A stretch of 34,037 nt of DNA from Saprospiraceae bacterium (lineage in GTDB: Bacteria > Bacteroidota > Bacteroidia > Chitinophagales > Saprospiraceae), in NCBI GenBank assembly GCA_020631105.1, contig JAHDHW010000040.1, positions 1,889-35,925 of the forward strand, written 5' to 3'. Each line of letters opens with the position of its first letter. Within the stretch, counting starts at the first letter, position 1. This document shows positions 138 through 21,985 of the stretch, in pieces. The notes beneath the pieces are model-generated. The model was not told the DNA's origin and searched no databases. It saw only the letters and a program-made list of their open reading frames with translations. A program made the translations under genes and the position numbers.

Positions 138-164
138 AAACATTTTTCCAATTCATACTTTTTA
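138..164 (+). promoter_or_regulatory. Candidate ECF-like promoter of the first gene (AAAC-N16-CTTTTTA)
   Basis: AAAC at 138-141 is followed by exactly 16 bases and then CTTTTTAG at 158-165. This matches the GAAC-N16-CTTTTTA elements before the genes at 4205 and 11158 except for the first base. The start codon lies 17 bases after the -10-like element, so the leader would be about 10 bases. This is a weaker match than the others in the family. Confidence 0.4.
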
Positions 165-181
165 GTAATAAATAAAAATTA

Positions 182-1453
182 ATGCGCACCAATATCCTCT
201 TAATTCAAATGATTTCCATCCTTATTTTAGCCCTATTTTTACACTCCTGCAGCAGGATGTCAGGTATGCCTAAGAACGTAGTACTAGAGCATATAGATGA
301 TCACCCGTCTGATTCGGTAAGGATAATTGCTACTGAAAGATATAAGAGCGGAATCATTAAGCCAATTTTCCAAGGGAAGAATTATCGTAAGGCCTGGGCC
401 ACACCAATTAAAGTACCAGTGCTATATTTGGATGAGTACGAAAATGGGTTGAAGCCGTTGGAAAAGGGAGGGGGGTTACAGACGCTCTCAATGGATTTGC
501 AAGGAAGTAATGATGTAGTATATACTTTGAGGAGTATTAATAAAAACCCGGAAGCTGCAGTACCTGAAGGGGCCAAAAAATGGAAAGTAGAAGATATTGT
601 ATACGATGCAATGTCAGCACAACACCCTTACGGTGCTATCGTAGTAGCAGCCTTAGCAGATGCTGTTCAGGTACAACATACCCATCCACAAGTATTTTAT
701 TTGCCGGAGCAATCTGCACTGGATTCATTTAATCAGGATTTTCGAAATAAATTATTCTTACTAGAGTACGAACCGGAAGGAAGCGGCAACTGGGTGAATC
801 TTCCAGGTGTCCAGAAGATTATTGATACCGAAGATGTTCAGGATGAGCTTGCTGAAAACCCCGACGCAAGGATCAATGAACGGGCGCTAGTTCGTGCCCG
901 ACTATTTGATCTGCTCATAGGTGATTGGGATCGACATTCAAAGCAATGGGGTTGGATAGAGCAATTACAAGCTGATGGCACAAAATTATATACGCCTTTG
1001 CCAACTGACCGGGATAATGCTTTTTATAATCCGGGTGGTTTGATTCCATGGATAATTACTCGACCTAAAGTGACTCCTTTTTTAAGACCATTCAAAAAGA
1101 AAATAGATTATGTCCCCGGTATGATCACGGCATTTGATCAATTCTTTTTGTTGCATGTCCCGGAATCGATTTTTATAGAAGAAGCTGAATACTTGCAAGC
1201 GGACTTAACGGATGAAGAAATTGAAAACGCTTTTGAAATATGGCCCGAGCAGTTTTATAAAATTGATGCTAAAAAAATGATTAAGAAAGTCATGGCCAGA
1301 AAAAGTAAATTACAAGAATATGCAATAGAACTGAAAGCGGCGATTGATGAACGAGGGCCACTAAGCAAACCACTGAAAGGCTCTTCAAAGCTCTATGTTG
1401 GACATCAAAATGTAGAGGAACCGAAATCATCAGATTTGACAGATAAACACTAA
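182..1453 (+). CDS. Lipoprotein with kinase-fold-like 'GDWDRH' motif
   Basis: The 423-residue protein begins with a lipoprotein signal: a hydrophobic segment ends in a Cys at about residue 23 (ALFLHSC), so it is probably anchored in the envelope. The recognisable part is around residues 240-285, where LFDLLIGDWDRHSKQWGW is followed by PLPTDRDNAFYNPGG. GDxDRH followed by a second acidic DRD resembles the catalytic and metal-binding segments of HipA/FAM20-like kinase folds. The same signature occurs in large Bacteroidota surface proteins. I infer a kinase-like fold and cannot say whether it is active or what its substrate is. It has its own candidate ECF-like promoter and converges on the guaD-like gene with only four bases between the stop codons. 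Confidence 0.7.
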   Translation: MRTNILLIQMISILILALFLHSCSRMSGMPKNVVLEHIDDHPSDSVRIIATERYKSGIIKPIFQGKNYRKAWATPIKVPVLYLDEYENGLKPLEKGGGLQTLSMDLQGSNDVVYTLRSINKNPEAAVPEGAKKWKVEDIVYDAMSAQHPYGAIVVAALADAVQVQHTHPQVFYLPEQSALDSFNQDFRNKLFLLEYEPEGSGNWVNLPGVQKIIDTEDVQDELAENPDARINERALVRARLFDLLIGDWDRHSKQWGWIEQLQADGTKLYTPLPTDRDNAFYNPGGLIPWIITRPKVTPFLRPFKKKIDYVPGMITAFDQFFLLHVPESIFIEEAEYLQADLTDEEIENAFEIWPEQFYKIDAKKMIKKVMARKSKLQEYAIELKAAIDERGPLSKPLKGSSKLYVGHQNVEEPKSSDLTDKH

Positions 1454-1457
1454 ATAT

Positions 1458-1928
1458 TTATTTCTTTTTCTTGAAGGCTTCCCACAGGTGAAATACTTCG
1501 AGACCAGCCTGCCTTTCCAGTTGTTCATAAGTTGTTTTTCGATGCATAGGACCTTTGCTTAATTCACTATAAATCTCTTCTACTCCAAATCCTGAAATTT
1601 CTTCTGCATCTTTATGTCTGGCAGCAAAGACAATTCTTTTTACGCCAGCATAATGTGCTGCAGCAGTACACATGGGGCAAGGTTCGCAAGAAGCATAGAG
1701 CGTAGCACCGGTAAGTTTATGATGGCCCAGGTTTTTTCCGGCTTTTCGTATTGCCATCACTTCAGCATGCGCAGTTGCATCCTTCTCTTTATAGATTTCA
1801 TTACTAGACTTGGCAATCACTTTTCCATCCAAAACAATGACGGCCCCAAAGGGGCCGCCAATGCCTTTTTTGATCCCTTTCTTGGCAACTTTTATTGCTG
1901 CGAGGATGTATTTCTTATCTTTTATCAT
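1458..1928 (-). CDS. guaD: Guanine deaminase / nucleoside deaminase family (CDA fold)
   Basis: This cytosolic zinc hydrolase of the cytidine/deoxycytidylate deaminase fold is 156 residues long, the same length as Bacillus GuaD. Its layout matches: IGGPFGAVIV near residue 23, the HAE zinc/proton-shuttle motif at H54-E56, and the PCPMC zinc site at C84/C87. GuaD converts guanine to xanthine. The related TadA (tRNA adenosine deaminase) shares both zinc motifs, but the GIGGPFGAVIV start and the length favour GuaD. It follows the OmpA-like lipoprotein by 14 bases and is probably co-transcribed with it, which would place a purine salvage enzyme under the envelope-stress promoter at 2666-2692. Substrate is inferred from similarity only. 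Confidence 0.8.
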   Translation of the reverse strand: MIKDKKYILAAIKVAKKGIKKGIGGPFGAVIVLDGKVIAKSSNEIYKEKDATAHAEVMAIRKAGKNLGHHKLTGATLYASCEPCPMCTAAAHYAGVKRIVFAARHKDAEEISGFGVEEIYSELSKGPMHRKTTYEQLERQAGLEVFHLWEAFKKKK

Positions 1929-1942
1929 AGTTGCGTAAGCTA

Positions 1943-2617
1943 TTAATCTTCCAGGTCTCCACGTTCTGCAGATTTCTTTAATTTGTCATTTGCATAGATA
2001 GCGAGCTCAACTCTTCGATTTTGTTTTCGACCGGCTTCTGAGCCATTATCTGCAATGGGTAAAGACTCACCATAACCTTCAATAATAAACCGTCGACTAT
2101 CTACACCATCATTTACCAGAACATTACGGACAGACTTCGCCCGATTTTCTGATAATTCCATGTTATAGCTTTCTGAGCCAGAGCTGTCGGTATGCCCTTG
2201 CAAAAGAACTTCGGTGTCTTCATATTTTTGCAGGATTTCAGCCAGCTCGTCTAGCTCTGATTTTGTGCCTGCACTTACATTAAATGAATTTAAGTCAAAT
2301 AATAAACCAGAGTCGAAAGTCAGTAATATCCCTTCTCCGACACGCTCCACTTTTACACCTTCGAGATCCCGTTGTATTTCTTCTGCTTGTCGATCCATGT
2401 AACGACCGATAAGATACCCGGCAGTTCCTCCAACAGCAGCACCAATGATAACTCCAGCAGCAGTGTTTCCTGCTTTTTTACCGATGACACCTCCTAATGC
2501 AGCTCCCGAGGTAGCGCCGATTGTTGTTCCTTTGGCTTTGTTGCTCCAGTTACAAGAAAAGCCCAGACAGCAGATCATCAGGCATATAAAAGTTGATTTT
2601 AAAGAAAAATTTTTCAT
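1943..2617 (-). CDS. OmpA-family lipoprotein with glycine-zipper region
   Basis: The 224-residue outer-membrane lipoprotein starts with a signal ending in a lipobox (LGFSC, Cys22). A glycine-zipper stretch follows at about residues 33-72 (repeated GxxxG in GATSGAALGGVIGKKAG and AAVGGTAGYLIG). A C-terminal OmpA-like peptidoglycan-binding domain spans about residues 95-210, with LLQGHTDSSGSESYN, LSENRAKSVRNVL and GYGESLPIADN...GRKQNRRVE. The domain order is that of YiaD-type proteins. The role is envelope-to-peptidoglycan tethering. It is the first gene of a likely two-gene unit with the downstream deaminase. A GAAC-N16-AGTTTTA element lies 48 bases upstream. Confidence 0.9.
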   Translation of the reverse strand: MKNFSLKSTFICLMICCLGFSCNWSNKAKGTTIGATSGAALGGVIGKKAGNTAAGVIIGAAVGGTAGYLIGRYMDRQAEEIQRDLEGVKVERVGEGILLTFDSGLLFDLNSFNVSAGTKSELDELAEILQKYEDTEVLLQGHTDSSGSESYNMELSENRAKSVRNVLVNDGVDSRRFIIEGYGESLPIADNGSEAGRKQNRRVELAIYANDKLKKSAERGDLED

Positions 2618-2665
2618 GTAGATAGAATTTGGTTTAGTTAGTAGATGTGCAAGATGTTACGGTGG

Positions 2666-2692
2666 TAAAACTAATAACATTCTCGTATGTTC
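2666..2692 (-). promoter_or_regulatory. Candidate ECF-like promoter of the OmpA-like gene
   Basis: On the minus strand this reads GAAC, 16 bases, AGTTTTA. It agrees with the GAAC-N16-C[G/T]TT[C/T]TA family except for the first base of the -10-like part. It lies 48 bases upstream of the start codon. A separate standard Bacteroidota-like -7 box (TAGTTTTG, minus strand, 2721-2728) lies about 55 bases further upstream and is an alternative. Confidence 0.45.
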
Positions 2693-2840
2693 AACGGAAT
2701 TCCGGCTATAAACCCTAAGTCAAAACTATAATTTGACGAGTGGAAAAAAATATTTATTTTTTTTGGAGAAGATTGAACAATACAATCATTTACCCTTTCT
2801 ACATCTGAGAATTAAGCAAAACTGTGAACCACTACAACAT

Positions 2841-3092
2841 AATTAACTCAAGTTGCGCTGAGTTGTAACTTGAATTAACTAAATATAGCTAAGACAAAAG
2901 AGTCCCAGCTTTCCGTCTGTTTCACTTGTGTGAGGAGGCGGAACTGGGGCTTACTTAATCGTGTTAAAGATAGTGTCTTATAGTGTGCAATGGCTTTAAA
3001 AGGATCGTGATTGCAAATCACCGGTATAAAATCTTAAGTCATTGTAAAATGAATTGACTGGGGAGTGATCTGACTCCCTTAGTCAATTTTTT
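2841..3092 (+). ncRNA. Candidate structured non-coding RNA
   Basis: The 679-base gap between 2618 and 3296 has no credible protein gene but holds a run of four stem-loops on the + strand. (1) 2840-2881 is a long A/T-rich stem with 13 of 15 positions paired, with an alternative AACTCA/TGAGTT pairing inside it. (2) 2901-2951 is a hairpin of about 20 pairs opening with AGTCCCAG/CTGGGGCT and closing on a TTGT loop. (3) 2988-3044 has a 9-base outer stem, CAATGGCTT/AAGTCATTG, around the inner hairpin GTGA-loop-TCAC. (4) 3052-3092 is a strong terminator. No tmRNA, RNase P, SRP or rRNA signature was recognised, and I could not assign it to 6S RNA. The 5' end is not defined: a promoter is not clear. 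Confidence 0.5.
3052..3092 (+). terminator. Rho-independent terminator of the candidate ncRNA
   Basis: AATTGACT and AGTCAATT form the base of the hairpin. GGGGAGT and ACTCCC continue it around a GATCTG loop, and six T follow. It reads on the + strand although both flanking protein genes are on the minus strand, so a + strand transcript is expected upstream. Confidence 0.8.
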
Positions 3093-3151
3093 AAAGACAT
3101 TATTTAATTAAAATATTTCCTCCAAAGTGTCCCAAAGTTAATACATGGTAG

Positions 3152-3187
3152 AAGCTGAATGAATCAATTGATTTATTCAGCTTTTTT
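3152..3187 (+). terminator. Second + strand terminator-like hairpin
   Basis: AGCTGAAT...ATTCAGCT pairs around an A/T-rich inner part and is followed by CTTTTTTA. It lies 60 bases after the first terminator with no gene between, so it is probably a back-up terminator for the same transcript. Confidence 0.6.
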
Positions 3188-3235
3188 ATGTGTTAATTTG
3201 AGTGAAGTTGTAGGAAGAAACTAGAAATGGCTTAA

Positions 3236-3275
3236 AACAAAAAGAGAGCGTTTCAACAGAAACACTCTCTTTAAA
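3236..3275 (-). terminator. Terminator of the helical-bundle protein gene
   Basis: On the minus strand GAGAGTGTTTC pairs with GAAACGCTCTC around a TGTT loop and is followed by TTTTTG. It starts 21 bases after the stop codon at 3297. Confidence 0.75.
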
Positions 3276-3296
3276 TTTATGAATTTATTTGGTTAG

Positions 3297-3770
3297 TTAT
3301 GCTGCAATTGTACTTTGGCTTTTTAATGCTTTGATTTCAACATCTAAGTTGTCAAGGTGTAGGTATACAGTTTTTTCGTAGTCTACAATTTGATTGTGTA
3401 GTTTGATGTTTTTATGGAATTTTTTTAAGACGGGATTTATGTTTTGTAGGATTTTAATTTCAGCTTGCCAAAGGTGTTCCAGGATTTTTGATTTATCATT
3501 TACGATTAGGTTAATGACTATTTTTTGCCAGCGACTTTCGATGTAGTTTTTTACTTCGTGAAATGGTTTATTGCTTAAGTTGTCGGGGTTATTTTGGCTT
3601 AATATTCCTTTGAAAAAATATTCATGATTCTTTCTCATTTCCGAGACAATACTAATAATGTATTCGTCAGTTGTGATATCTTCAATGCGTTGGTAGTTTT
3701 TAGCAGTACTTTTTTGTAAAGCTAATAATCGCTTAAAATGTGTCTGAAAATTATTCCTTTGAAAAAACAT
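3297..3770 (-). CDS. PA2169/DUF2383-like four-helix-bundle protein
   Basis: This is a 157-residue all-alpha, soluble protein with no signal peptide. Its pattern of amphipathic helices, with a segment NDKSKILEHLWQAEIKILQNINPVL near residues 90-115, resembles the NDKxxxLxxxxxAE signature of the PA2169 (DUF2383) family, a ferritin-like helical bundle of unknown biochemical role found in stress loci. A second protein of the same type is encoded at 5415-5891. It is monocistronic: terminators lie on both sides. No clear copy of the shared ECF-like promoter was found upstream. The family assignment is by eye and moderate. Confidence 0.6.
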   Translation of the reverse strand: MFFQRNNFQTHFKRLLALQKSTAKNYQRIEDITTDEYIISIVSEMRKNHEYFFKGILSQNNPDNLSNKPFHEVKNYIESRWQKIVINLIVNDKSKILEHLWQAEIKILQNINPVLKKFHKNIKLHNQIVDYEKTVYLHLDNLDVEIKALKSQSTIAA

Positions 3771-3823
3771 GATGAATTAAATTTGAGTAGTAATATCTGA
3801 TTGAGTCGAAAGATTTTTGAGTG

Positions 3824-3870
3824 TTAAAATAGCACCTTGATAAATAAGTTAATCGAGGTGCTATTTTTTA
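3824..3870 (-). terminator. Terminator of the DUF1328 gene (symmetric)
   Basis: AAAATAGCACCT and AGGTGCTATTTT form a 12-base stem with further pairing inside. On the minus strand it lies 17 bases after the DUF1328 stop codon and ends in TTTTAACA. On the + strand it is followed by six T, so it could also work in that direction. Confidence 0.75.
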
Positions 3871-3887
3871 TTTAGAGAGTTGAAGTC

Positions 3888-4052
3888 TTAGACTTTTCTA
3901 ACTGCATTTGAGACTAAACTTAATACTGCTAAGACTACAAATACCCAGAATAATATTTTAGCAATTCCGGCAGCACCTGCGGCGATCCCACCAAAACCAA
4001 ATATACCAGCGATAATTGCGACAACGAAAAAGATTAGAGCGTAACGTAACAT
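3888..4052 (-). CDS. DUF1328 (YtjA-type) small membrane protein
   Basis: A 54-residue peptide was read directly from the minus strand, [18 protein letters not shown] at the start and [12 protein letters not shown] at the end. It has two hydrophobic helices separated by a Gly/Ala-rich turn ([14 protein letters not shown]), which is the signature of the DUF1328/YtjA family of about 50-60 residues. Members are inner-membrane peptides of unknown function and are commonly found among general-stress genes. It is preceded by the strong shared promoter element at 4129-4155 with a leader of about 70 bases, and followed by a terminator, so it is a single-gene unit. Confidence 0.9.
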
Positions 4053-4128
4053 AATTTTAAAGTTTTAAGGTTTTTTAAATGAAATAAATAGTTTAAATGT
4101 AAATAGGATTATTTGATTGTTGTGTCGC

Positions 4129-4155
4129 TAGAACGGGGCAAGATCTTAATTGTTC
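4129..4155 (-). promoter_or_regulatory. ECF-like promoter of the DUF1328 gene (conserved copy 1)
   Basis: On the minus strand this is GAAC-N16-CGTTCTA, continuing as GCGAC. The + strand block GTCGCTAGAACGG at 4124-4136 is identical in front of dps (8272) and baeRF (11074). TGTTC follows at the same 14-base distance in all three. The layout fits an extracytoplasmic-function sigma promoter. Confidence 0.75.
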
Positions 4156-4166
4156 GAAATGAAGTT

Positions 4167-4193
4167 GAACTTTCTTTTTATTCAGTCTTTTTA
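4167..4193 (+). promoter_or_regulatory. Divergent ECF-like promoter of the TonB-C lipoprotein gene
   Basis: GAAC at 4167-4170 is followed by 16 bases and CTTTTTA at 4187-4193. The same GAAC-N16-CTTTTTA occurs before the divergent gene at 11158. The start codon is 11 bases after the -10-like element, so the predicted leader is only a few bases long. Confidence 0.65.
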
Positions 4194-4204
4194 CTTTAAA
4201 AAAA

Positions 4205-4846
4205 ATGAATAAAATTATTTTTCTGTTTGCTAGCTTATTAATGATTTCTTGTGGACAACCTGCTAATGTTGATCCGGTTAATGAGATACAAGAAGATACT
4301 ACAATCTTTTCCCGGATGACTACTTTTGAGAGAGATGATTTGACAAGGGATGCAACACTTACTCCCTTAAGTAATCAAGATCCGGATCATTATATTTATG
4401 ACTGGTCCGTTGATAAAGCAAACTTTACAGAGCAAGTACCTAGGGTGAATTTTCAGGCGATTAAATTGGATTCCAGTAAAACTGTAAACCCCATATCTTA
4501 TGAGGTGACCAAAATTAATCGGCCGCCACTTTTTGATGCGGATTGTTTACAGGCTAATCGTCCTGTTGAATGTTCTAATAAAAAGTTAAAATCATTTATT
4601 CAATCTGTAGTTGATAGTTTTCAGGAAGAAGATGAATTCACGAATGATTACGAATTAGTGACTTTTGTAATTAATGAAAATGGGGAAATACTAGGAGATA
4701 TATTTATCGCACCCCAGGAAAAAACTTGTAGGGTTTGTACAAAGGTTGCAGCTCAAGTAGTTACAAAGATGCAAGACTGGGTGCCTGCGATAAGAAACGA
4801 AAAACCAGTAAGTGTCCGAATACAGGTGCCAGTACGATTTAGGTAA
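4205..4846 (+). CDS. Lipoprotein with TonB C-terminal-like domain
   Basis: The 213-residue protein has a lipoprotein signal (LLMISC, Cys at residue 16), so the start at 4205 is well fixed. The C-terminal 90 residues resemble the TonB C-terminal fold: VTFVINENGEILGD, then AAQVVTKMQDWVPAIRNEKPVS, then IQVPVRF. Unlike true TonB it is lipid-anchored, not held by an N-terminal membrane helix with a Pro-rich arm, so it is unlikely to power transport and more likely a periplasmic binding or assembly domain. Four Cys near the domain (DCLQ, ECSN, CRVC) could form disulfides. Its promoter faces that of DUF1328 and it ends in a strong terminator. Confidence 0.8.
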   Translation: MNKIIFLFASLLMISCGQPANVDPVNEIQEDTTIFSRMTTFERDDLTRDATLTPLSNQDPDHYIYDWSVDKANFTEQVPRVNFQAIKLDSSKTVNPISYEVTKINRPPLFDADCLQANRPVECSNKKLKSFIQSVVDSFQEEDEFTNDYELVTFVINENGEILGDIFIAPQEKTCRVCTKVAAQVVTKMQDWVPAIRNEKPVSVRIQVPVRFR

Positions 4847-4850
4847 AATT

Positions 4851-4889
4851 AAAAAACTCCTTAGTAGATAATGCTAAGGAGTTTTTTTA
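4851..4889. terminator. Bidirectional terminator between convergent genes
   Basis: AAAAAACTCCTTA and TAAGGAGTTTTTTT form a 13-base stem with T-runs on both strands. It serves the lipoprotein gene on the + strand and, 52 bases past its stop codon, the PepSY-like gene on the minus strand. Confidence 0.85.
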
Positions 4890-4940
4890 ATTATTCTAGA
4901 GTTCTTTCGTTCGCTGAATTGCAGTCTTGATTTAATTTAA

Positions 4941-5375
4941 TTAGTTAATTCGAATACCGTCAGCATTAAATTCTATATCCATTTTTTTACCATCCTTTTT
5001 GAATTCTATGTCATAGAATAAACCTTTGGAATGGTGTTCTACTTTTTCCATTTCTACGATTTTATATTTATCAAAATCTTTTTCAATTGCTTTTTCAACG
5101 GCCTTGGGTAAGTCTTTTTTCTTAACCCTTGTTTCAGTTTCTATCCATTGTCCGTCTGGGGAGAAATCTGCATTATATTTAATGCCTTTCTTTTTAAAGT
5201 TGGCTTCAAAGTTTCCGTTCTTGTCTGTGTGCCAGTCGGGGTCATTTTCTCCAGGGTATTTTTGTTGAAAAGTCTGCTTCACTGCTTCTGGAGTTTGATC
5301 ATTAGTTTCAGGGTTGTTTTCGCATGCTGCAAAAATAAAAAGTGTAGACAAGAGAATTAATATTGAGTATTTCAT
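4941..5375 (-). CDS. PepSY-like (BLIP-type) lipoprotein
   Basis: The 144-residue protein has a lipoprotein signal ending FIFAAC (Cys19). Its body has two similar halves, each with a DF/EF-K-KDG/KKG-beta pattern: FEANFKKKGIKYNADFSPDGQWIETETRV and FYDIEFKKDGKKMDIEFNADGIRI. This is the repeat layout of the 'putative beta-lactamase-inhibitor-like, PepSY-like' family common in Bacteroidota periplasms. The biochemical role is unknown. It lies 39 bases downstream of the DUF2383-like gene on the same strand and may be co-transcribed with it. Confidence 0.8.
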   Translation of the reverse strand: MKYSILILLSTLFIFAACENNPETNDQTPEAVKQTFQQKYPGENDPDWHTDKNGNFEANFKKKGIKYNADFSPDGQWIETETRVKKKDLPKAVEKAIEKDFDKYKIVEMEKVEHHSKGLFYDIEFKKDGKKMDIEFNADGIRIN

Positions 5376-5414
5376 TGTATTGTTTTTAAACGAAGAATAG
5401 GATTTATAAGGGAT

Positions 5415-5891
5415 TTAAATATTATCAAAAAAAGAGTTGTCCTCTATTTGTGAAAGAAGACTGTTGATTTCTACATTCCAATGTAAACCTGCGATAGTGT
5501 CTCTTTGGTTTTTTAATAGTCGTCTGGTAGAGTTTGGTAATATAGGAATGCGAAGCAAACGATCATATTCGTTTTTGCAAGTACGCTCTGCTTTTTCGCA
5601 AGCTTCTAAAAGAGAGGAAGTTTGTTTATTTTTTATCATTTTAGAATTGACGATGATCCAGGGGTTGATATTAAGGTGTTCTAATTGTTGTGCCTCATAT
5701 ATTTTACCACCCAGTTTTTTGATCTCCTCTTTAATCTGATTTCCCAGGACATACCTTTCATTTACTTTTCGGTGAAAAAATTCATGGGTATCAGTATGGC
5801 TTATCTTATTGGCGACTATACGATATTGCTTTAAGGTGTCGTAGTTCTTTTTTAATAAAATATTGAGTTGTTGAATAATGTATTCTCCCAT
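5415..5891 (-). CDS. PA2169/DUF2383-like four-helix-bundle protein
   Basis: This is a 158-residue, all-helical, cytosolic protein. The start chosen is the Met at 5891 because an upstream in-frame start at 5951 would sit inside the terminator hairpin of the preceding gene and adds a poorly matching leader. The core has LNILLKKNYDTLKQYRIVA, then LGNQIKEEIKKLGGK, then an acidic helix LLEACEKAERTCKNEYDRLL and a last helix with Q-x-x-x-x-x-LHWNVE. That order matches the PA2169/DUF2383 family better than the relative at 3297. The function is unknown; the fold is ferritin-like. Confidence 0.7.
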   Translation of the reverse strand: MGEYIIQQLNILLKKNYDTLKQYRIVANKISHTDTHEFFHRKVNERYVLGNQIKEEIKKLGGKIYEAQQLEHLNINPWIIVNSKMIKNKQTSSLLEACEKAERTCKNEYDRLLRIPILPNSTRRLLKNQRDTIAGLHWNVEINSLLSQIEDNSFFDNI

Positions 5892-5933
5892 GTTCAAAAT
5901 GTGTTGAATGAAAAATATTTTATTTGAAAGAGA

Positions 5934-5971
5934 AAAGCACCTGACAATCAAGAGTTGTCCAGTGCTTTTTT
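5934..5971 (-). terminator. Terminator after the coiled-coil secreted protein gene
   Basis: AAAGCAC-CTG-ACAA pairs with TTGT-CCA-GTGCTTT around TCAAGAG. On the minus strand the run CTTTTCTCTTTC follows. On the + strand six T follow, so it may be bidirectional. Confidence 0.65.
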
Positions 5972-6000
5972 GGTTTTTACATTAGCATTTTAATGCTTGT

Positions 6001-6711
6001 TTATTTAGGGTTGTCAGATAAAAGTTTGAGCTGACTATTGATCTTATCTAGTTCAGATTTTACCTTCTGTAATTCTTCTTCACTATCCATCAGTTTGCTA
6101 CTGGTTTTGCTTAACTCCTCTGTTAATTCCTCGTTTTCGGCCCGTAGTTTTTCGATCTCTTCAAGCTTTTTTTGAATGTCATCTTTGTTATCAGCAATGT
6201 CATCCTTTAGATCTGCTTTTTCTTCTCTGTAATCTTCAACGACGTCGTTAACATCTTGAACTTGCTCGGTGTAGTATCCGGGTAAGTAATCGTCAATGAA
6301 TGCTATCATTGTTGATCTTAGATTTGAATAGTCCTGATAGTTTTCATCAGGGCTTACAGGAATGCTATAACCATATGCTCCGAAAAAACTTATTTTAGTG
6401 CGATTACCTTCTTCGATTACTTTAGCAAAGAAGTCCATCTTTTTATCACTGATAGAATTAATTCTTATCTCTTCGGCGTAGAGTACGTCTTTGTTAGACA
6501 AAAAGCCAATGCCTTTTAATTTTACATCATATCGATCTTTAAAGAAATCTTTTAATTCCTTTTTTGTTGCCTTACTGTCAGGCTCGATATAGATGGAATA
6601 AGATGGGTACTGTTTCTTTTCGTATTCAACCTGGTCTTGTACAATGTCAATAGTTTGAGCGTTAGTGGAGAAGGTTAATGAAAATAATAAAAGAGCGAAA
6701 ATATATTTCAT
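6001..6711 (-). CDS. Secreted protein with C-terminal coiled coil
   Basis: The 236-residue protein has a signal peptide (MKYIFALLLFSLTFSTNAQ, cleavage after A). A mixed alpha/beta domain spans about 20-150, and a long charged heptad-rich coiled coil covers about 153-232 (KKLEEIEKLRAENEELTEEL and similar). I do not recognise the globular domain. The coiled coil suggests oligomerisation or a spacer in the periplasm. It is the last gene of a same-strand run DUF4199 - 103-residue protein - this gene, with gaps of 11 and 28 bases, closed by the terminator at 5934-5971. Confidence 0.7.
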   Translation of the reverse strand: MKYIFALLLFSLTFSTNAQTIDIVQDQVEYEKKQYPSYSIYIEPDSKATKKELKDFFKDRYDVKLKGIGFLSNKDVLYAEEIRINSISDKKMDFFAKVIEEGNRTKISFFGAYGYSIPVSPDENYQDYSNLRSTMIAFIDDYLPGYYTEQVQDVNDVVEDYREEKADLKDDIADNKDDIQKKLEEIEKLRAENEELTEELSKTSSKLMDSEEELQKVKSELDKINSQLKLLSDNPK

Positions 6712-6739
6712 GATTGTATTTTTTTGTTAGGTTAAAAAA

Positions 6740-7051
6740 TTAGACTGTTTGAGTTTTGAGGTCGTCCATAAACTGCATTAATGCTGCATTTGCATAAGGC
6801 CCATATGCTGAAACTACAGTCCCTTTAATTTGGTCATTACAATTAACTGCAAATACAATTGAATTATCTGAAGGGTTGGTCATTCCTTCGAAACGATACT
6901 GTTCGTCAATAACGACTTGTTCGCTATTGTATTCCTTTTTGTTTTGCAGGCATATCAATCGATGGTCGTCAAATTTAAAGGTATGATGGTAGCCCCTTTG
7001 ATTTAAATCATTGGTTGCTTCGACCATGGTGGAATATTTATATCTATTCAT
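6740..7051 (-). CDS. Small conserved cytosolic protein of unknown function
   Basis: This 103-residue protein has no signal peptide. It resembles a family of about 90-110-residue Bacteroidota proteins with an N-terminal Y-x-x-M/V-x-E-A-x-x-D-L-x-x-R-G-Y segment, a central YRFEGMTNPSDNSIVFAV and a C-terminal KGTVVSAYGPYA. Such proteins are sometimes labelled 'phosphoribosylpyrophosphate synthetase' in databases. The length and lack of a PRPP motif make that name untrustworthy, so I leave the function open. It lies between the DUF4199 gene and the coiled-coil secreted protein in one probable operon. Confidence 0.7.
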   Translation of the reverse strand: MNRYKYSTMVEATNDLNQRGYHHTFKFDDHRLICLQNKKEYNSEQVVIDEQYRFEGMTNPSDNSIVFAVNCNDQIKGTVVSAYGPYANAALMQFMDDLKTQTV

Positions 7052-7062
7052 TGTGGATACTT

Positions 7063-7599
7063 TTATGCGTTTACATTTTCATTCACTTCTCCGTTTTTTA
7101 GAAACTGTAAAGTGATGAAAGTCATAATCATTCCGTAAACAAAGGTTTCAATGAATATTAAGGCGCCGACGACTGCGGTAAGACCAAATTCTCCACCATC
7201 AATATTAAATTTTTGGAAAGCTAAACTATCGGCAAGGCCATAGGATAATAAACTTGCGACCAATAAAACAGTAGCACTGACCAGACTAATGAAAAGCCCA
7301 TAAGCCATGCCAGAGCGGAAAGTATAGGCTTTGCCTAAACGCTCCTTTTGACTATTTAATCCATATATTAATATACCCAGAAGAATAAAATATTTTAAAT
7401 ATTTCACCCCAACTGAATCTTCAAAGCCAAGGGCATTAATGGTAAGGAGGTATATGGACATTGCTGCTCCACCAATTAGTCCCAGACGAAGCCCATTGCC
7501 ATAAAAATTAAAAGGTTTTAAAAACGGGGTATTCCTATTGGTATTCAGACTTAAGGTGTTTCTCTTGTCTCTAATAATAATTTCTTCTTCGGTAGTCAT
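7063..7599 (-). CDS. DUF4199 integral membrane protein
   Basis: The 178-residue protein has four hydrophobic helices at about residues 35-55, 65-82, 95-120 and 138-165, with the GGxxMSIYLL and FRSGMAYGLFISLVSA segments usual in the DUF4199 family of Bacteroidota. I start it at 7599 because the upstream alternative at 7659 would place the first codons within the dps terminator. It heads a three-gene run. The function of the family is unknown. Confidence 0.75.
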   Translation of the reverse strand: MTTEEEIIIRDKRNTLSLNTNRNTPFLKPFNFYGNGLRLGLIGGAAMSIYLLTINALGFEDSVGVKYLKYFILLGILIYGLNSQKERLGKAYTFRSGMAYGLFISLVSATVLLVASLLSYGLADSLAFQKFNIDGGEFGLTAVVGALIFIETFVYGMIMTFITLQFLKNGEVNENVNA

Positions 7600-7630
7600 T
7601 TTAATATATTTTTCTTGGATTCGTAAGTTT

Positions 7631-7661
7631 AAAAAAAGAGCGGATAGCAAGCTACCCACTC
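7631..7661 (-). terminator. Rho-independent terminator of dps
   Basis: On the minus strand GAGTGGGTAG pairs with CTATCCGCTC around a CTTG loop with one T-G wobble, then seven T. It lies 32 bases after the dps stop, so dps is a single-gene transcript. Confidence 0.85.
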
Positions 7662-7693
7662 GAAAGGGGATTTGTTTATATGTTGATCCTGTT

Positions 7694-8236
7694 TTATGAA
7701 GCTGCTTCTAGTTCAGGCTTTAGTTTATGCGTTGCCCATGCATCAAGCATCCAGGATTTTTTCTCTATTGCTTCTAAGAAGCCTCCGATCATATCGATGG
7801 TTCCTTCATCTGTGATTTCGTCTGCTTTCTTGATTACATTCCGCATATTGGCGATTAGGATTCTGTGATTATCAAGAGTAGTTAAGATCATTTCACGATC
7901 CTCGTCAATCAAGGTAGCTTCCTCAATGTCCGCTATTTCAAGATAATCAGACATGCGGCTTAAAGGACGATGGCGTAATGTCAAAATACGTTCAGCAATT
8001 TCATCAATTTTTAATCTGGCATCATTATATAATGCTTCGAACTGCGCATGTAAGTCAAAGAAATTCTCGCCAGAAATATTCCAATGGAAATTTCTTAGGT
8101 TTTGGTAATACACGGTATAGTTACTTAAAAGGGTGTTTAATTCACCGACTACGTTTTGTAATTTTTCACGATCGTAACCGAGGTAATCTTTGGGTTTGAA
8201 GTATTTATTATCTGTAAATTCACTAGGTTTATTCAT
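7694..8236 (-). CDS. dps: Dps-family DNA-binding ferritin-like protein
   Basis: This 180-residue dodecamer-forming mini-ferritin oxidises iron with peroxide and protects DNA. The ferroxidase signature is intact: H51-W-N, H63 and E67 in the LHAQFEALYND helix, with D/E residues from RLKIDEIAERI. An N-terminal extension of about 22 residues before the first helix contains several Lys and could aid DNA contact. The gene has a private promoter of the shared ECF-like type 40 bases upstream and its own terminator. Family membership is clear, and transcription from an alternative stress sigma factor is inferred. Confidence 0.95.
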   Translation of the reverse strand: MNKPSEFTDNKYFKPKDYLGYDREKLQNVVGELNTLLSNYTVYYQNLRNFHWNISGENFFDLHAQFEALYNDARLKIDEIAERILTLRHRPLSRMSDYLEIADIEEATLIDEDREMILTTLDNHRILIANMRNVIKKADEITDEGTIDMIGGFLEAIEKKSWMLDAWATHKLKPELEAAS

Positions 8237-8276
8237 TGTTATATTTTATTTAATTATTTATTAATTATTGTGTCGC

Positions 8277-8303
8277 TAGAACGGAGCAACTTGATTTTTG
8301 TTC
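8277..8303 (-). promoter_or_regulatory. ECF-like promoter of dps (conserved copy 2)
   Basis: GAAC-N16-CGTTCTA on the minus strand, embedded in the 13-bp block identical to those at 4124 and 11074. It lies 40 bases upstream of the dps start codon, which implies a leader of about 34 bases. Confidence 0.75.
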
Positions 8304-8321
8304 AGTAGAATTTCTTAGTAT

Positions 8322-8328
8322 CTTTTTA
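8322..8328 (+). promoter_or_regulatory. Orphan CTTTTTAGC -10-like half element
   Basis: CTTTTTAGC matches the divergent -10-like element at 11141, and the dps block sits at the same side of it. Here the preceding GAAC is missing (TCAG stands 16 bases before) and no + strand gene follows except a six-codon reading frame starting at 8365. It may be a decayed divergent promoter. Confidence 0.3.
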
Positions 8329-8399
8329 GCTGAGAGTATACTTTTTTATCCAAGTGTGTGCACTATGGAGAAATTAAAAAAGTAAGTAGAAGTGGTTTT

Positions 8400-9242
8400 T
8401 TAAAATACTAAAACTGGAATCTCGGAGCGGAGAATAATTCGATCAGAGTGCAGATTAGAAAAGATGCGTTCGAAGAAAGGCTCTTCTGAATGTTCGATTG
8501 CTAACCAGTCAATTAACAATTGCTCAGACATATTTTGAATCTCTTTGGCCGAATCAATGTTAGTGACCAGGCTATATTTTAATTGTCTGTAATTATAGAA
8601 ACGCTGCATGGTGTTGACAAGGTGGTTGTATTTTTCAGTAGTACCTTTAGAAGCTTCATCTGCGACTAACATTATATGCAGGTTCGCATTGAGCGCTGTT
8701 GCAATAGTATGGAGCGTCCGTATGTTTTTAGCTTTGCTATCATCGAGTTCCATTACATACAAAATATCCTGGACAGGTTTCCAGCTAAAAGTATTTGGCA
8801 CAACAAGGACTGGAGCATTAATATTTTCTGCTAACCTCGTTTCATAAGTGCCAAACCATTCTCCCAAAGTATGTAATTCATTATTCCCTTCCACAATAAC
8901 CATAAATGGTTTTTCTGTTGCTGCTTTTTGTATCATGGTCTCTTCCGGAAAACCGACCTCAACTTCGTATTCGAGGTTATTGTAAACCTCTCTTGATTTC
9001 ATACAGATTTTCTGGAGTTTTGCCTCCTGTTCTTTCTGAATGGTTTCGATATTGGGAGCAGGAGAAATGATGGATGAGTGTGAATTAAAGCTTGTTTCAG
9101 GGATTGTCAATTGAGGCATTTTAGCAATGCCGGATAATAAAGCTGGCTGATCGAGCCGCTTTGCTAGCTGAACACCATAGTGAATGAATGGATTATCCAC
9201 TGTGTAATTATTTATAGCAATGATTATTTTCTGATTTTTCAT
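8400..9242 (-). CDS. Tandem universal stress protein (UspA family)
   Basis: The 280-residue cytosolic protein consists of two Usp domains, about 1-145 and 150-280. The first starts KIIIAINNYTVDNPFIHYGVQLAKRL and ends with the beta-strand LAENINAPVLVVP. The second starts DILYVMELDDSKAKNIRTLHTIA and ends LRSEIPVLVF. The ATP-binding G-x2-G-x9-G-S/T motif is not intact in either half, so it may be a non-ATP-binding type. It is convergent with nothing and sits between the PsbP-like gene and dps on the same strand. No shared promoter element was seen upstream. Confidence 0.9.
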   Translation of the reverse strand: MKNQKIIIAINNYTVDNPFIHYGVQLAKRLDQPALLSGIAKMPQLTIPETSFNSHSSIISPAPNIETIQKEQEAKLQKICMKSREVYNNLEYEVEVGFPEETMIQKAATEKPFMVIVEGNNELHTLGEWFGTYETRLAENINAPVLVVPNTFSWKPVQDILYVMELDDSKAKNIRTLHTIATALNANLHIMLVADEASKGTTEKYNHLVNTMQRFYNYRQLKYSLVTNIDSAKEIQNMSEQLLIDWLAIEHSEEPFFERIFSNLHSDRIILRSEIPVLVF

Positions 9243-9292
9243 GTGTTGATATTTGTCAGTAACTAAAGGGTTAGACTTTTTTCAGCGCTTGT

Positions 9293-9787
9293 TTAAATTA
9301 AGTCTGTATTAGTTTCCAGAATGATGTTGTTTTTTATTTCATTGATCCAGGCTGACTTTTCTATAGGGGCGGTGATTTGTAATTTTACAATTCTGTTTCC
9401 AAGATGAAATAATTTTTCATAGTGGTGATACTTTTCATCCTTGTAACTGATCTCACCGTAGTTACCATTAATTATGCGATAAGTAGTTTGAGTCAGACTA
9501 TCGTTCGGATTCAAGTAGTGATCACAAAGTGTATGGATGCCTTTATCTGAGACACCATACATCCCGTCAATTTTGATGGTCGTCTTGGTGCTATTGTGTT
9601 TTAGGACTAAAGTTTTTTTCTGATCATATACAGGTGTAAAACCATTAGGGTACTTGAAACTGTAGTTGAATTCTTCGTTTATATAATGAGCGAGAGGTTG
9701 TGAGGATAATTGACTTTCGGCTACCGCTTTTTCTCGTAAAAAAAATGGCAGTACTAATAAAACTAAAAAGCTAATGACTATTCGCAT
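9293..9787 (-). CDS. Secreted PsbP-like protein
   Basis: The 164-residue protein has an N-terminal signal peptide (hydrophobic stretch 4-17, possible cleavage near VAES). The start of the mature domain, NEEFNYSFKYPNGFTPVYDQKKTLVLKH, has the 'FSFxYPxxW/F' opening of PsbP-like folds found in many bacterial exported proteins. The rest is beta-rich and ends in a helix (SAWINEIKNNII). The role is unknown. It lies between a terminator-like hairpin after baeRF and the Usp gene, 50 bases ahead of the latter, so the two may be co-transcribed. Confidence 0.65.
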   Translation of the reverse strand: MRIVISFLVLLVLPFFLREKAVAESQLSSQPLAHYINEEFNYSFKYPNGFTPVYDQKKTLVLKHNSTKTTIKIDGMYGVSDKGIHTLCDHYLNPNDSLTQTTYRIINGNYGEISYKDEKYHHYEKLFHLGNRIVKLQITAPIEKSAWINEIKNNIILETNTDLI

Positions 9788-9813
9788 AAGAGTTGATGGT
9801 TAATTTTGAGCAT

Positions 9814-9848
9814 TGAAAAGTCGGCCGAAGTACAAGACTTCGGCTCTA
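9814..9848 (-). terminator. Terminator-like hairpin after the baeRF gene
   Basis: GCCGAAGT and ACTTCGGC form a perfect eight-base stem around a five-base loop. The minus-strand tail is CGACTTTTC, a weak T-run, so termination may be partial. Confidence 0.5.
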
Positions 9849-9873
9849 ATTATTAAAGAATGTTTGTCAGGGA

Positions 9874-11031
9874 TTAGTACCGGTAAATGGCGTTGACTTG
9901 TGCTACAATTCTTGGGAACTCCATACGAGGGATGTTTAGGACTTTACCACCATTGTTATAAGTTGCCATTGCAGCTTTATTCAGCAAACATATGCTGTTT
10001 GCTTGCTTATTCGGATGAATGGATATTTTGTTTGTTGCTTGATCGTATGTTCCCCAGACTGCTTCTGTATTTTTATCAACGAAAATTGTTTTTACTTTTC
10101 CGTTTAAAGCTGCAGGGACTACATTATGAATCGAGAAAGATGCCTCTTCTTCGGCTAACGCTGCTTCAAAAGCATTTCGGATTTCTTCTTTTCGTTGAGT
10201 GAAGTAAGATTTAATTTGATTCCATGCTTTTTCATGGATTAGGACTGGATCATCATTTTCGGGATTACCGGTAATTTTTTCTTCTATTATATTGGAGTAA
10301 TCTGATATGCTTTTGTAAAGCGCTACTTGTTCTTCTGTGGAATAGATGATTAATGGAGCGTTTTCATCAAATAGCATTTTCATTAAACCCTTATCTACGT
10401 CTTCGAAATATTTTTTGACTTGAATATCCTGGATGTCCTTGGCTCCGCCATGACCATGGTAAATTGTGTCGCTACCTCCACTATGATGTTGTAGTACTTT
10501 TTCTCTGTTATCTACACCAATTAGTTCTTCCTTTCCCATTGGGACAAGGTCAGATATTCTGACAGGACTAATACTAAATCTTGTGGCGTCAAAAAATCTA
10601 ACATCATTTTGACTTAGTGCCAGTACAAAGAATCGAGATTCTTCGTTGAGTAGAGAGATTAAATGCCTCAGATAAAACGCTTTATTTACGTAAATGAAAT
10701 CTTTAAAAGATAATGGTACTGTGAAATATTTAAAAGTATTTTTTCCAATGAAAACAGCAAGACCATCTGAGAGGTAATTCCAAAACTCATTATCCGCTAA
10801 TAAATTAAAACCTGCGGATAAATAATCTTGTGCTTGTTGTTTGTTCATCACATGCTCTCCTTGGAGATGTGGATCGGTAAGTTGGCTTACTGCATTCTTT
10901 AGTGCATTCTTAAACTTAAGTTGAAATTTTTCAGATTCACCGGATCGGTCAGTACCAATATATATGGATATTTTTGGATCGTTAGTATTTTGAGTATTCA
11001 GTAGCTTTTTATAATCGTGTTTGGTAAACAT
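9874..11031 (-). CDS. Bacterial archaeo-eukaryotic release factor-like protein (baeRF)
   Basis: The 385-residue cytosolic protein has the baeRF three-part layout: an N-terminal alpha/beta domain (about 1-130), a middle RNase-H-like domain with FFVLALSQNDVRFFDATRF, and a C-terminal L7Ae-like domain whose end, ICLLNKAAMATYNNGGKVLNIPRM...VAQVNAIYRY, is typical of the family. A His/Gly stretch (YHGHGGAKD) lies at the end of the loop region. The GGQ of true release factors is absent. baeRFs are proposed to act on ribosomes or stalled translation. It carries the shared ECF-like promoter and faces a DUF697 gene, so a stress role is inferred. Confidence 0.8.
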   Translation of the reverse strand: MFTKHDYKKLLNTQNTNDPKISIYIGTDRSGESEKFQLKFKNALKNAVSQLTDPHLQGEHVMNKQQAQDYLSAGFNLLADNEFWNYLSDGLAVFIGKNTFKYFTVPLSFKDFIYVNKAFYLRHLISLLNEESRFFVLALSQNDVRFFDATRFSISPVRISDLVPMGKEELIGVDNREKVLQHHSGGSDTIYHGHGGAKDIQDIQVKKYFEDVDKGLMKMLFDENAPLIIYSTEEQVALYKSISDYSNIIEEKITGNPENDDPVLIHEKAWNQIKSYFTQRKEEIRNAFEAALAEEEASFSIHNVVPAALNGKVKTIFVDKNTEAVWGTYDQATNKISIHPNKQANSICLLNKAAMATYNNGGKVLNIPRMEFPRIVAQVNAIYRY

Positions 11032-11078
11032 AAAATTAAGTTTTTAAAGTCAGGAATATGAGTTTCTTGATTCGTCGC

Positions 11079-11105
11079 TAGAACGGGACGTATTTAAATT
11101 TGTTC
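11079..11105 (-). promoter_or_regulatory. ECF-like promoter of baeRF (conserved copy 3)
   Basis: GAAC-N16-CGTTCTA on the minus strand inside the 13-bp block shared with DUF1328 and dps. It lies 47 bases upstream of the baeRF start codon. The -35-like GAAC is part of a perfect nine-base inverted repeat, TTGTTCAAT (11100-11108) and ATTGAACAA (11118-11126), whose other arm is the -35 of the divergent promoter. Confidence 0.75.
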
Positions 11106-11120
11106 AATTTCAATGCTATT

Positions 11121-11147
11121 GAACAATTCTGAGGCTTGACCTTTTTA
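11121..11147 (+). promoter_or_regulatory. Divergent ECF-like promoter of the DUF697-like gene
   Basis: GAAC at 11121-11124, 16 bases, CTTTTTA at 11141-11147 followed by GC. The start codon is 10 bases downstream. The element matches the one at 4167-4193 in sequence, spacing and distance to the start codon. Confidence 0.65.
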
Positions 11148-11157
11148 GCCTAAAAAA

Positions 11158-11691
11158 ATGGCATCAGTAGAAATTCCGATAGACCCGATTCAGAAAGCAG
11201 TGCACCGAAAAGATAACTTCGAAGAAAAGTCCGGGAGTATTATTAAAAAATATTCTTTGATTACCGGTGGAGCCTGCCTATTGCCTTACACTGGGCTTGA
11301 TATTGCTTCAAGTACGCTTACACAAACTTTAATGGTTAGAGAGCTCTGTCAATTGTATAATGTGGAGTACTCAGAGAGGCTAATGAATATTGCCGCATGG
11401 TCCGCGGTGGGAAGTGTTTTGATTAAATTGATCGGAGAACTGGTCACCAATTTAATACCTTCATCAAAATCAAATAAAAAAATCGATTTTACAGGCGCGG
11501 CTATCGGCGCCATTTATACGGCAACGCTTGGAGAATTTTATAAATTGCATTTAAGAGACGGAGGGACTTTAGAAGATGTTTCCGCTTCGGACTTTGTGGA
11601 TTACTTCGTAGCCGAGGTACAGCGAGGGAACCTAAGCATTGATTCATTTACTGATCCTCGTAAGTTGATTAATCAGTTTGTATTGTCCTAG
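11158..11691 (+). CDS. DUF697-like membrane-associated protein
   Basis: The 177-residue protein has two hydrophobic hairpin regions at about 35-60 (GGACLLPYTGLDIASSTLTQTLMVRELCQLYNV) and 80-130. The phrase LxPxxGLDI...T..Q..M.REL..LYNVEY matches the DUF697 core found fused to GTPases or as stand-alone membrane proteins. No GTPase domain is present. The start is fixed because no other Met follows for about 50 residues. It is divergent from baeRF from a shared 126-base control region and ends at a strong terminator. The function is unknown. Confidence 0.7.
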   Translation: MASVEIPIDPIQKAVHRKDNFEEKSGSIIKKYSLITGGACLLPYTGLDIASSTLTQTLMVRELCQLYNVEYSERLMNIAAWSAVGSVLIKLIGELVTNLIPSSKSNKKIDFTGAAIGAIYTATLGEFYKLHLRDGGTLEDVSASDFVDYFVAEVQRGNLSIDSFTDPRKLINQFVLS

Positions 11692-16627: not shown

Positions 16628-16651
16628 TGATACTAGTAAGCGTGCAAATTT

Positions 16652-17185
16652 CTAAATCTTATAATACTTACGTTTTTTCTTGGGTTTGGTTTTTTCCTTT
16701 GGTTTTTGAGGCACTTTTCTTTGGAAGAAAGGGTCCTCAGAAAAAGGATCTCCGAAAAACGAATCGAAGGTACGACTTTTTTGTTGTTCGGGACGTTGAA
16801 TAATACCTTCGGGGTTGGGAGCGACCCGGATTTCGTATGGACTGGTTTCCAGAAAATTTCCGTCAATCTCTACACTAGCAGGTTCGATATAAAAAATACC
16901 TTCTTCTTTTGGTTCTAAGTAATAAGAATAGCTAAGGCTTTGGCTTGATACACCGTTGACAATGCTTATGCTGGAGGATTGATTTGGACCACCGACAATA
17001 TTGAAATCTTCGAAGTTCGGAGCTTCGAAATTCTTGGCATCCCCATTCTCGATAGAGAAGGTTGCGATCAGATAATTACCCATCAGGATAGAGTCTGTAC
17101 TCACATTCAGACTAAAGGTGGGCTCTTGGGCACTTATCGAAAAACTAAAATAAGTGCAAAGGATAAAAAGTAAGATTCTCATCAT
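16652..17185 (-). CDS. Stand-alone BatD N-terminal-domain paralog
   Basis: This 177-residue exported protein has a signal peptide (MMRILLFILCTYFSFSISAQ). One Ig-like domain (about 22-125) aligns with the start of BatD: DSILMGNYLIATFSIENGDA, then FNIVGGPNQSSSISIVNGVSSQS, then YYLEPKEEGIFYIEPASVEIDG. After this it has a short acidic/Phe linker (FDSFFGDPFSEDPFF) and a Lys-rich end (KPKEKTKPKKKRKYYKI) instead of further domains and a membrane helix. It keeps its reading frame with a normal stop, so it looks like a functional duplicate, not a broken gene. It lies between batC and batD in the operon. Confidence 0.8.
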   Translation of the reverse strand: MMRILLFILCTYFSFSISAQEPTFSLNVSTDSILMGNYLIATFSIENGDAKNFEAPNFEDFNIVGGPNQSSSISIVNGVSSQSLSYSYYLEPKEEGIFYIEPASVEIDGNFLETSPYEIRVAPNPEGIIQRPEQQKSRTFDSFFGDPFSEDPFFQRKVPQKPKEKTKPKKKRKYYKI

Positions 17186-17225
17186 TCACTCTTTTTGGTT
17201 TAATGTATATTGCCTGAAATCGATT

Positions 17226-17945: not shown

Positions 17946-17970
17946 GTTGCAAAATAAGTTAAACTTAAAA

Positions 17971-19029: not shown

Positions 19030-19053
19030 GGCTCAGTTTATAGTTAAAAGCGT

Positions 19054-21062: not shown

Positions 21063-21071
21063 GTAATTAAT

Positions 21072-21941: not shown

Positions 21942-21985
21942 GTTATATTAAAGTTAAACCCTCAATTTAGAATCGGAGTTTTTTA

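Follow-up and report, generated by a model that had tools for sequence, protein, structure and literature searches.

The 34,037-nucleotide stretch analyzed here (the window; contig C172:1889-35925 of a 6.0-Mb, 339-contig Saprospiraceae genome, referred to as G000) carries genes for several stress-type proteins that are preceded by members of a family of promoter-like elements, GAAC-N16-C[G/T]TT[C/T]TA (Table 1). The block GTCGCTAGAACGG is found exactly at positions 4124, 8272 and 11074, in each case with TGTTC 14 bases later and upstream of a minus-strand gene, and Pfam matches confirm that these genes code for a DUF1328 protein, a Dps-type ferritin and a baeRF protein. Divergent elements of the form GAAC-N16-CTTTTTA are likewise exact at 4167 and 11121. 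The original prediction, which had pointed out these five elements, also described weaker ones before the genes at 182 and 2617. These do have the 16-base spacing; each carries one change, and we regard both as unproven. A sixth match, at 2775, had gone unnamed. Overall, the pattern GAAC-N15-17-C[GT]TT[CT]TA has 6 matches in the window versus 0.37 expected, and none of 100 shuffles reaches 6.

Table 1. Predicted promoters, the genes they may control and a candidate RNA in the window. Starts and regulon assignments are predictions.
Feature	Coordinates	Strand	Predicted start	Basis or remark
Weaker element AAAC-N16-CTTTTTA upstream of the gene at 182	138..164	+		One change; unproven
Weaker element GAAC-N16-AGTTTTA before the gene at 2617	2666..2692	-		One change; unproven; gene product OmpA/glycine-zipper protein (Pfam)
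Promoter-like element GAAC-N16-CTTTCTA	2775..2801	+	2807	Next called + strand open reading frame 1.4 kb off
Candidate structured noncoding RNA	2807..3095	+		Downstream of the 2775 element; 3' hairpin and T-run by eye
DUF1328 small protein	3888..4052	-		Regulon member; PF07043
ECF-type promoter GAAC-N16-CGTTCTA for DUF1328	4129..4155	-	4123	
Divergent promoter GAAC-N16-CTTTTTA for TonB_C-like protein	4167..4193	+	4199	
TonB C-terminal-like domain protein	4205..4846	+		Regulon member; lipoprotein by eye; PF03544 just above cut-off
Dps-type ferritin	7694..8236	-		Regulon member; PF00210; matches to three NCBIfam Dps models, none reaching its cut-off
ECF-type promoter GAAC-N16-CGTTCTA for dps	8277..8303	-	8271	
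Universal stress protein (Usp)	8400..9242	-		PF00582; probably co-transcribed with baeRF
baeRF/Balon-related ribosome hibernation factor	9874..11031	-		Regulon member; Pfam baeRF families
ECF-type promoter GAAC-N16-CGTTCTA for baeRF/Balon	11079..11105	-	11073	
Divergent promoter GAAC-N16-CTTTTTA for DUF697-like protein	11121..11147	+	11153	
DUF697-like protein	11158..11691	+		Regulon member; PF05128 just above cut-off

Promoters read by extracytoplasmic function (ECF) sigma factors have an AAC-type -35 region, a spacer of about 16 bases, a short conserved -10 region and a fixed start, and the family displays this set of features at the level of sequence. As had been proposed, the elements are unlike the usual Bacteroidota promoter, whose primary-sigma box is TAnnTTTG (PMC9723704). 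They lack this box, and an exact copy is absent from five of the seven intergenic stretches of the window that were checked, occurring once before the DUF697 gene and once before the gene at 2617.

Recurrence in other genera was examined in 79 named loci surrounding homologues of an ECF sigma factor of G000 (described below). This is the cleaner of our test sets, having been retrieved by protein only and not by motif (1.26 Mb, 87% coding; some contigs end early, and some loci are the same records as among 20 stretches discussed below). At a spacing of 16 bases from GAAC, C[GT]TT[CT]TA occurs 65 times, with 52 sites intergenic, although gene calls are longest open reading frames and some "coding" matches may reflect over-extended frames. 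Other spacings (10-15 and 17-23, 13 in total) yield only 1 to 11 matches each, for a sum of 46 (14 intergenic). Spacing 17 contributes 11 of these (7 intergenic) and the twelve remaining spacings 35 (7 intergenic), and the reversed pattern at spacing 16 matches once. When the -10 sequence is not preset, CGTT at spacing 16 emerges as the top word after GAAC; it occurs 53 times where 2.2 would be expected and is present in 51 of the 79 loci.

The sites are also oriented toward genes. Among the 52 intergenic sites, 29 have a gene within 150 bases in the forward direction only, compared with 1 in the backward direction only, while 12 lie between divergent genes and 10 fit neither arrangement. With spacers of 15 to 17 bases allowed, 35 of 61 intergenic sites head homologues of genes on the stress contigs of G000, including Usp (8 sites), Dps (6), baeRF (5) and MscS of one type (4). 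Another 23 head other genes, among them DUF1328, CsbD, HSP20-like and PNPOx-like genes as named by eye, and 3 have no gene within 350 bases. Two matches concern the divergent promoters of the window: a TonB_C-like homologue in genome G031 (27% identity, E 2e-20) has GAAC-N16-CGTTTTA 16 bases upstream, and a DUF697-like homologue in G104 (44% identity) is headed by GAAC-N16-CTTTCTA.

Several columns outside the search pattern are conserved as well. The base before GAAC is T or C in all 52 intergenic spacing-16 sites of relatives (T in 13, C in 3 and A in 1 of the 17 sites in G000), and GAAC is followed by A in 49 of the 52 and then by T in 38. The extended element can be written [T/C]GAACA-N15-C[G/T]TT[T/C]TA, wherein relatives have GAACAT and G000 mostly GAACAA. 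In addition, all 52 sites of relatives and 16 of the 17 G000 sites, which were hand-picked and include four variants, have a purine 6 bases downstream of the final A of the -10; it is also present in 13 of 13 coding spacing-16 matches. Transcription was originally proposed to begin about 7 bases past the -10-like part, and a fixed purine is indeed found near there. Because a transcription start gives such a column, this purine is likely the start. The same test does not separate spacing-17 sites, where 6 of 7 have the purine in the shifted column and as many have one in neighboring columns.

Comparable patterns are seen in G000 itself when contigs C119 and C3, which were selected for their motif matches, are considered together with C172 (97 kb, 91% coding). 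GAAC-N16-CGTT[CT]T[AG] has 10 matches on these contigs, all intergenic, compared with a single match at the remaining spacings between 11 and 21 (ten in all). For the CTTT form, spacing 16 gives 7 matches (5 intergenic) and the other spacings give 2. In 280 kb of other G000 DNA, each form has a single spacing-16 match, both coding. In 20 stretches from 12 genomes (336 kb, 88% coding) selected by ECF or baeRF protein, CGTT[CT]T[AG] occurs 14 times at spacing 16 (12 intergenic), 6 times at 17 (3), twice at 15 (2) and 3 times elsewhere (1), and CTTT[CT]TA occurs 6 times at spacing 16 (5 intergenic) and 6 times elsewhere (none intergenic).

The genes headed by sites on the G000 contigs extend beyond those in Table 1. 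They include CsbD, Pmp3 and DUF2383-like genes, the last named by eye (a paralogue at C172:6 matches PF09537). One site precedes a gene for an unassigned 128-amino acid protein followed by an S30AE protein gene (C172:1303-1626). Sites with the variant sequence CGTTGTA are found before MscS, which is followed by YtxH, holin-like and BrkB genes, and before AI-2E, which is followed by DUF2254. Some of the headed genes have no assigned role.

The original prediction had suggested scanning whole genomes for the motif, and such scans were carried out. In G000, the strict form CGTTCTA with spacers of 15 to 17 matches 11 times versus 13 for reversed controls, while GAAC-N16-CGTTYTA matches 17 times versus 10. 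Eight of these 17 are on C172 and C119, all intergenic, whereas of the other nine, seven are coding and two intergenic. Across 14 genomes, the matches and reversed controls for this form are 17/10 (G000), 2/13 (G001), 4/21 (G003), 18/12 (G018), 13/5 (G031), 10/4 (G060), 5/12 (G104), 12/12 (G032), 3/2 (G004), 4/13 (G145), 2/2 (G146), 3/4 (G147), 1/1 (G148) and 1/8 (G149), which amounts to an excess in five genomes, that in G004 being slight. Motif enrichment is local to the stress clusters and not genome-wide, and the short strict pattern is less informative as a genome-wide test than the spacing, intergenic and protein-anchored tests. A longer form that includes GCGAC, with up to 3 mismatches allowed, occurs at 17 places in G000 versus 12 for reversed controls, and the 6 places with 0 to 2 mismatches are all on C172, C119 and C3. 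This form was set aside for relatives, where at 2 or fewer mismatches it appears in only 8 of 59 genomes, G000 included, as the GCGAC extension is largely confined to G000.

The sharp spacing, intergenic placement, orientation to genes, reappearance upstream of homologues in other genera and fixed purine support the promoter reading. We consider it close to certain from these sequence comparisons that GAAC-N16-C[G/T]TT[C/T]TA constitutes an ECF-type promoter family. The elements very probably turn on a group of genes that protect against stress, with gene content being the feature that suggests a general-stress function.

A candidate for the sigma factor that reads these promoters is encoded on C3 (11879-12403), adjoining motif-headed genes. 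The 174-amino acid protein has the length (about 170-200 amino acids) and both sigma-70 regions expected of an ECF sigma factor (region 2, PF04542, E 2.3e-15; region 4, PF08281, E 5.1e-12), and the ECF superfamily model is the only one above its cut-off in the top 25 of 80 NCBIfam matches. By ECF protein, the nearest named relatives are Saprospiraceae metagenome-assembled genomes, with Phaeodactylibacter and Neolewinella more distant. Divergent to the ECF gene is a gene (C3:13259-15772) that had been considered a histidine kinase gene until Pfam matches overturned this assignment in favor of a sigma-54 activator (Sigma54_activat, E 1.4e-75, with an AAA lid). Its product has at least two PAS stretches and, by eye, a GAFTGA sequence, and there is no receiver domain among its Pfam matches.

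Two lines of evidence, linkage and the ECF tree, indicate that the C3 ECF and its clade likely read the promoter. First, an ECF homologue and baeRF are on one contig in G097, G088, G070 and G031, and they are 18-30 kb apart in the single-contig genome G087. Among 120 genomes of the family, the ECF is present in 11 of 14 genomes with the activator versus 8 of 106 without, and baeRF in 10 of 14 versus 7 of 106; these counts are not corrected for relatedness, and their thresholds (580 and 160 bits) were set post hoc from the tables, with 580 barely including G031. Second, loci with sites cluster on the ECF tree, requiring 12 changes versus 24 when shuffled (0 of 500 shuffles as low), and this distribution links the motif to the clade of the C3 ECF. 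The tree has long branches, that of the G000 ECF included, and its deepest fork separating a 36-row group (27 with sites) has support of 84/84. A site is present in 17 of the 19 ECF loci with an adjoining activator, compared with 0 of 29 rows in a Neolewinella-type clade. Phaeodactylibacter xiamenensis (locus L200) is a cultured relative in which both motif and activator are present. A hand-made Neolewinella group of 28 loci, one of which (L206) lies outside the tree clade, likewise has no sites. A search for alternative -35 and -10 words in the Neolewinella-type loci found none that is convincing. We also observed that the Neolewinella and Lewinella loci L193-L235 have many strong sigma-54-type promoters, with neither GAAC-N16-C[GT]TT[CT]TA nor the activator in the locus DNA examined.

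It is possible, although unlikely, that the promoters are real and are read by a different ECF of the same genome, with the C3 ECF merely a neighbor. G000 has 44 matches to sigma-70 region 2, and related ECFs (E<=1e-35) are found in 115 of the 120 family genomes, often several in each. However, the motif tracks the ECF clade and the activator-linked ECFs as noted above, and just weak matches were found near the other G000 sigma genes examined. This alternative overlaps the one considered next, so that their odds need not sum to one.

Expression of the ECF gene itself is likely relayed through sigma-54, as judged from sequence features upstream of the gene. A sigma-54-type site, TGGCACG-N4-TTGAA, lies above the G000 ECF gene (C3:12970-12955; score 22 of 25). 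With a cut-off of 21 of 25, set post hoc from the tables, such sites are present above the ECF in 53 of the 79 loci versus 5 of 79 on the reverse strand. They lie above the ECF gene or above a small gene that precedes it, many of them 60-90 bases above the ECF. A sigma-54 gene is present in 15 of 15 genomes. The activator is divergent within 1.5 kb in 19 of the 79 loci and anywhere in the locus DNA examined in 27, where matches are best BLAST hits to the protein set of the three G000 contigs (33-60% identity), a set that any sigma-54 activator could match. The divergent multi-PAS/AAA+ activator probably acts on the ECF promoter. At E<=1e-130 it is found in 26 of the 120 family genomes, and at E<=1e-150 a phylum-wide sample of 395 genomes has it in 2, both Saprospiraceae. 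As no genome outside Saprospiraceae in this sample has the activator, the suggestion of such a system is not supported for Bacteroidota as a whole.

A second alternative accepts the promoters and the ECF and rejects the sigma-54 step, such that ECF expression would follow a different route and control would be post-translational, for example with a small helical protein acting as an anti-sigma factor. The gene just before the G000 ECF gene (C3:12475-12951) encodes a 158-amino acid protein that is helical in a structure model (mean pLDDT 77), and in all 17 of the preselected loci examined, an open reading frame for 135-169 amino acids has its end no more than 250 bases upstream of the ECF. The proteins are fast-diverging, about 140 amino acids long and, in an alignment of the G000 sequence with 16 others, only 15-28% identical to it; the G000 protein has no Pfam match and no solved-structure match at E<=0.001. 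These properties and the frequency and position of the sigma-54-type sites argue against this possibility, which we judge slightly less probable than a different ECF. A pair of ECF and anti-sigma genes bearing the element upstream, which had been put forward as a check, was not found.

It is quite improbable that the elements are transcription-factor operators. The three minus-strand sites do contain a GAAC..GTTC inverted repeat, and the GAAC-N17-GTTC arrangement of the CGTTC form is dyad-like. However, the dyad is broken in the CTTT and CGTTTT forms, the sites point one way (29 versus 1), and a purine is present at a fixed distance on one side. Chance or an assembly artifact might be invoked given that the strict short pattern is near background genome-wide, but the spacing peak in the protein-retrieved loci already contradicts this, as do the window enrichment, the other spacing peaks, the CGTT word enrichment, the start purine and the recurrence in other genera, and we give it almost no weight.

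The best explanation, to which we assign a probability of roughly 77%, is that the elements are ECF-read promoters of a general-stress regulon and that the ECF is made via the PAS activator and sigma-54. Stress would be sensed by the PAS domains of the activator, which would prompt sigma-54 to transcribe the ECF gene from its sigma-54-type promoter. In turn, the ECF would activate the regulon, whose members include Dps, Usp, Balon/baeRF, DUF1328, CsbD, Pmp3, MscS, YtxH, the DUF697 protein and the TonB_C-like protein. In part of the clade, the ~140-amino acid helical protein encoded before the ECF may tune its activity.

Several points weigh against this explanation. The evidence for the promoter, its reader and the relay is comparative throughout, and the sites are not independent because near-identical relatives are among them. 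The statistics for the three G000 contigs are biased because C119 and C3 were picked for motif matches, and the 20 stretches were selected after a motif scan of their inner parts had been viewed. No genome-wide excess of GAAC-N16-CGTTYTA is seen in 9 of the 14 genomes, including G032 and G104, which carry the module, and not every headed gene is a stress gene. Scans of the G000 contigs found no motif before the ECF gene, and the many region 2 matches in this genome mean that another ECF could be the reader. Only 4 of 12 genomes having a close ECF homologue and baeRF keep both on one short contig. Moreover, 60 of the 79 ECF loci have no divergent activator homologue within 1.5 kb, and the -12 part of the G000 sigma-54-type site is TTGAA instead of TTGCA.

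By eye, the stress cluster is flanked by genes for a phytochrome-type kinase and for response regulators, together with one resembling heme oxygenase, both on C119 (40201-44031) and in G060 (L150:8340-13311). These neighbors hint at light or redox input.

The proposed system resembles two known designs, with an output like that of EcfG and control like that of HrpL. In Alphaproteobacteria, EcfG (ECF15) recognizes GGAAC-N16-CGTT, and NepR keeps it in check until PhyR releases it (PMC7083833). The originally noted likeness to EcfG holds for the promoter core, GAAC-N16-CGTT, and for the general-stress type of gene set. It does not extend to the partner protein: NepR was found in none of 15 genomes, while the same search found it in 1 of 14 control genomes (Caulobacter), and membership in the EcfG group fails on this point. 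In addition, the leading G of GGAAC is absent from all 52 sites of relatives and all 17 of G000, and control here seems to be sigma-54-dependent synthesis, whereas EcfG is controlled by partner switching. For HrpL (ECF32) of Pseudomonas syringae, the ECF gene is transcribed from a sigma-54 promoter driven by the enhancer-binding proteins HrpRS, with no evidence reported for an anti-sigma factor (PMC5263251, PMC8999054). The circuit layout is alike in that an ECF gene has a sigma-54-type -24/-12 site and an enhancer-binding protein encoded nearby. The differences are that one PAS-type activator takes the place of HrpR and HrpS, that the regulon is of a stress type and does not concern type III secretion, and that the phylum is another.

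Among systems described for Bacteroidota, the motifs mapped in Flavobacterium psychrophilum comprise three sigma-A forms, sigma-54 (with chaperones among its genes), SM5 and SM6, of which none is described as a general-stress regulon in the portion of that work available (PMC9723704). SM6 is similar to the present family in phylum and in having a CGT box in the -10, but it is found at type IX secretion genes (PMC9723704), which SigP/PorXY also serves (PMC4800418). SigH (ECF114) of P. gingivalis is listed as transcriptionally regulated (PMC8999054). Within the open-licence full-text literature, outside of which most subscription papers fall, we found neither a report of a sigma factor for general stress in Bacteroidota nor a description of the relay wiring for this phylum.

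The baeRF protein deserves separate mention. Its only solved-structure match at E<=0.01 is 8rd8_B (E 2.5e-9), an entry from the work on Balon (PMC10901736), and the NCBIfam Balon-type model matches it below cut-off. Balon genes are usually located in stress operons, including ones that contain alternative sigma-70 factors and RaiA, and the available part of that report gives no promoter for these operons (PMC10901736). The present analysis, by comparison, puts forward a specific promoter together with a candidate sigma factor.

We lean toward the broader view, held with less confidence than the mechanism above, that Saprospiraceae have a stress response of their own in which a PAS activator, sigma-54 and an ECF act in series. 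Its promoter would have converged on the EcfG core in a system that lacks NepR switching, and its genes would form a clustered stress island that includes Balon-type hibernation and perhaps a structured RNA. If correct, the findings would provide a general-stress sigma system for Bacteroidota, a promoter that allows its regulon to be listed, and a circuit combining EcfG-like output with HrpL-like sigma-54 control. They would also provide a regulator for a Balon-type hibernation factor and, in the activator, a target for knockout, and they predict start sites to the base.

The structured RNA in question is a candidate for the product of the 2775 element. The fold of positions 2808-3095 (288 bases) has a z-score of -7.5, which suggests that 2775-3095 may specify a stress-induced structured RNA. 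Its 3' hairpin is missing from the output of a terminator scan, which listed one at 3150-3185 instead. Searches returned 16 Rfam matches, all below gathering score, and no plasmid match. The RNA is not conserved by sequence, with one 34-base match (E 9e-4) outside G000 among 120 genomes.

Two further observations were made by eye. Minus-strand genes at 14867-22987 of the window resemble a MoxR/Bat aerotolerance-type operon, and the family pattern is absent there. Positions 61-132 form a low-complexity run with CACTCACC/CTGTCTCAC-like repeats.

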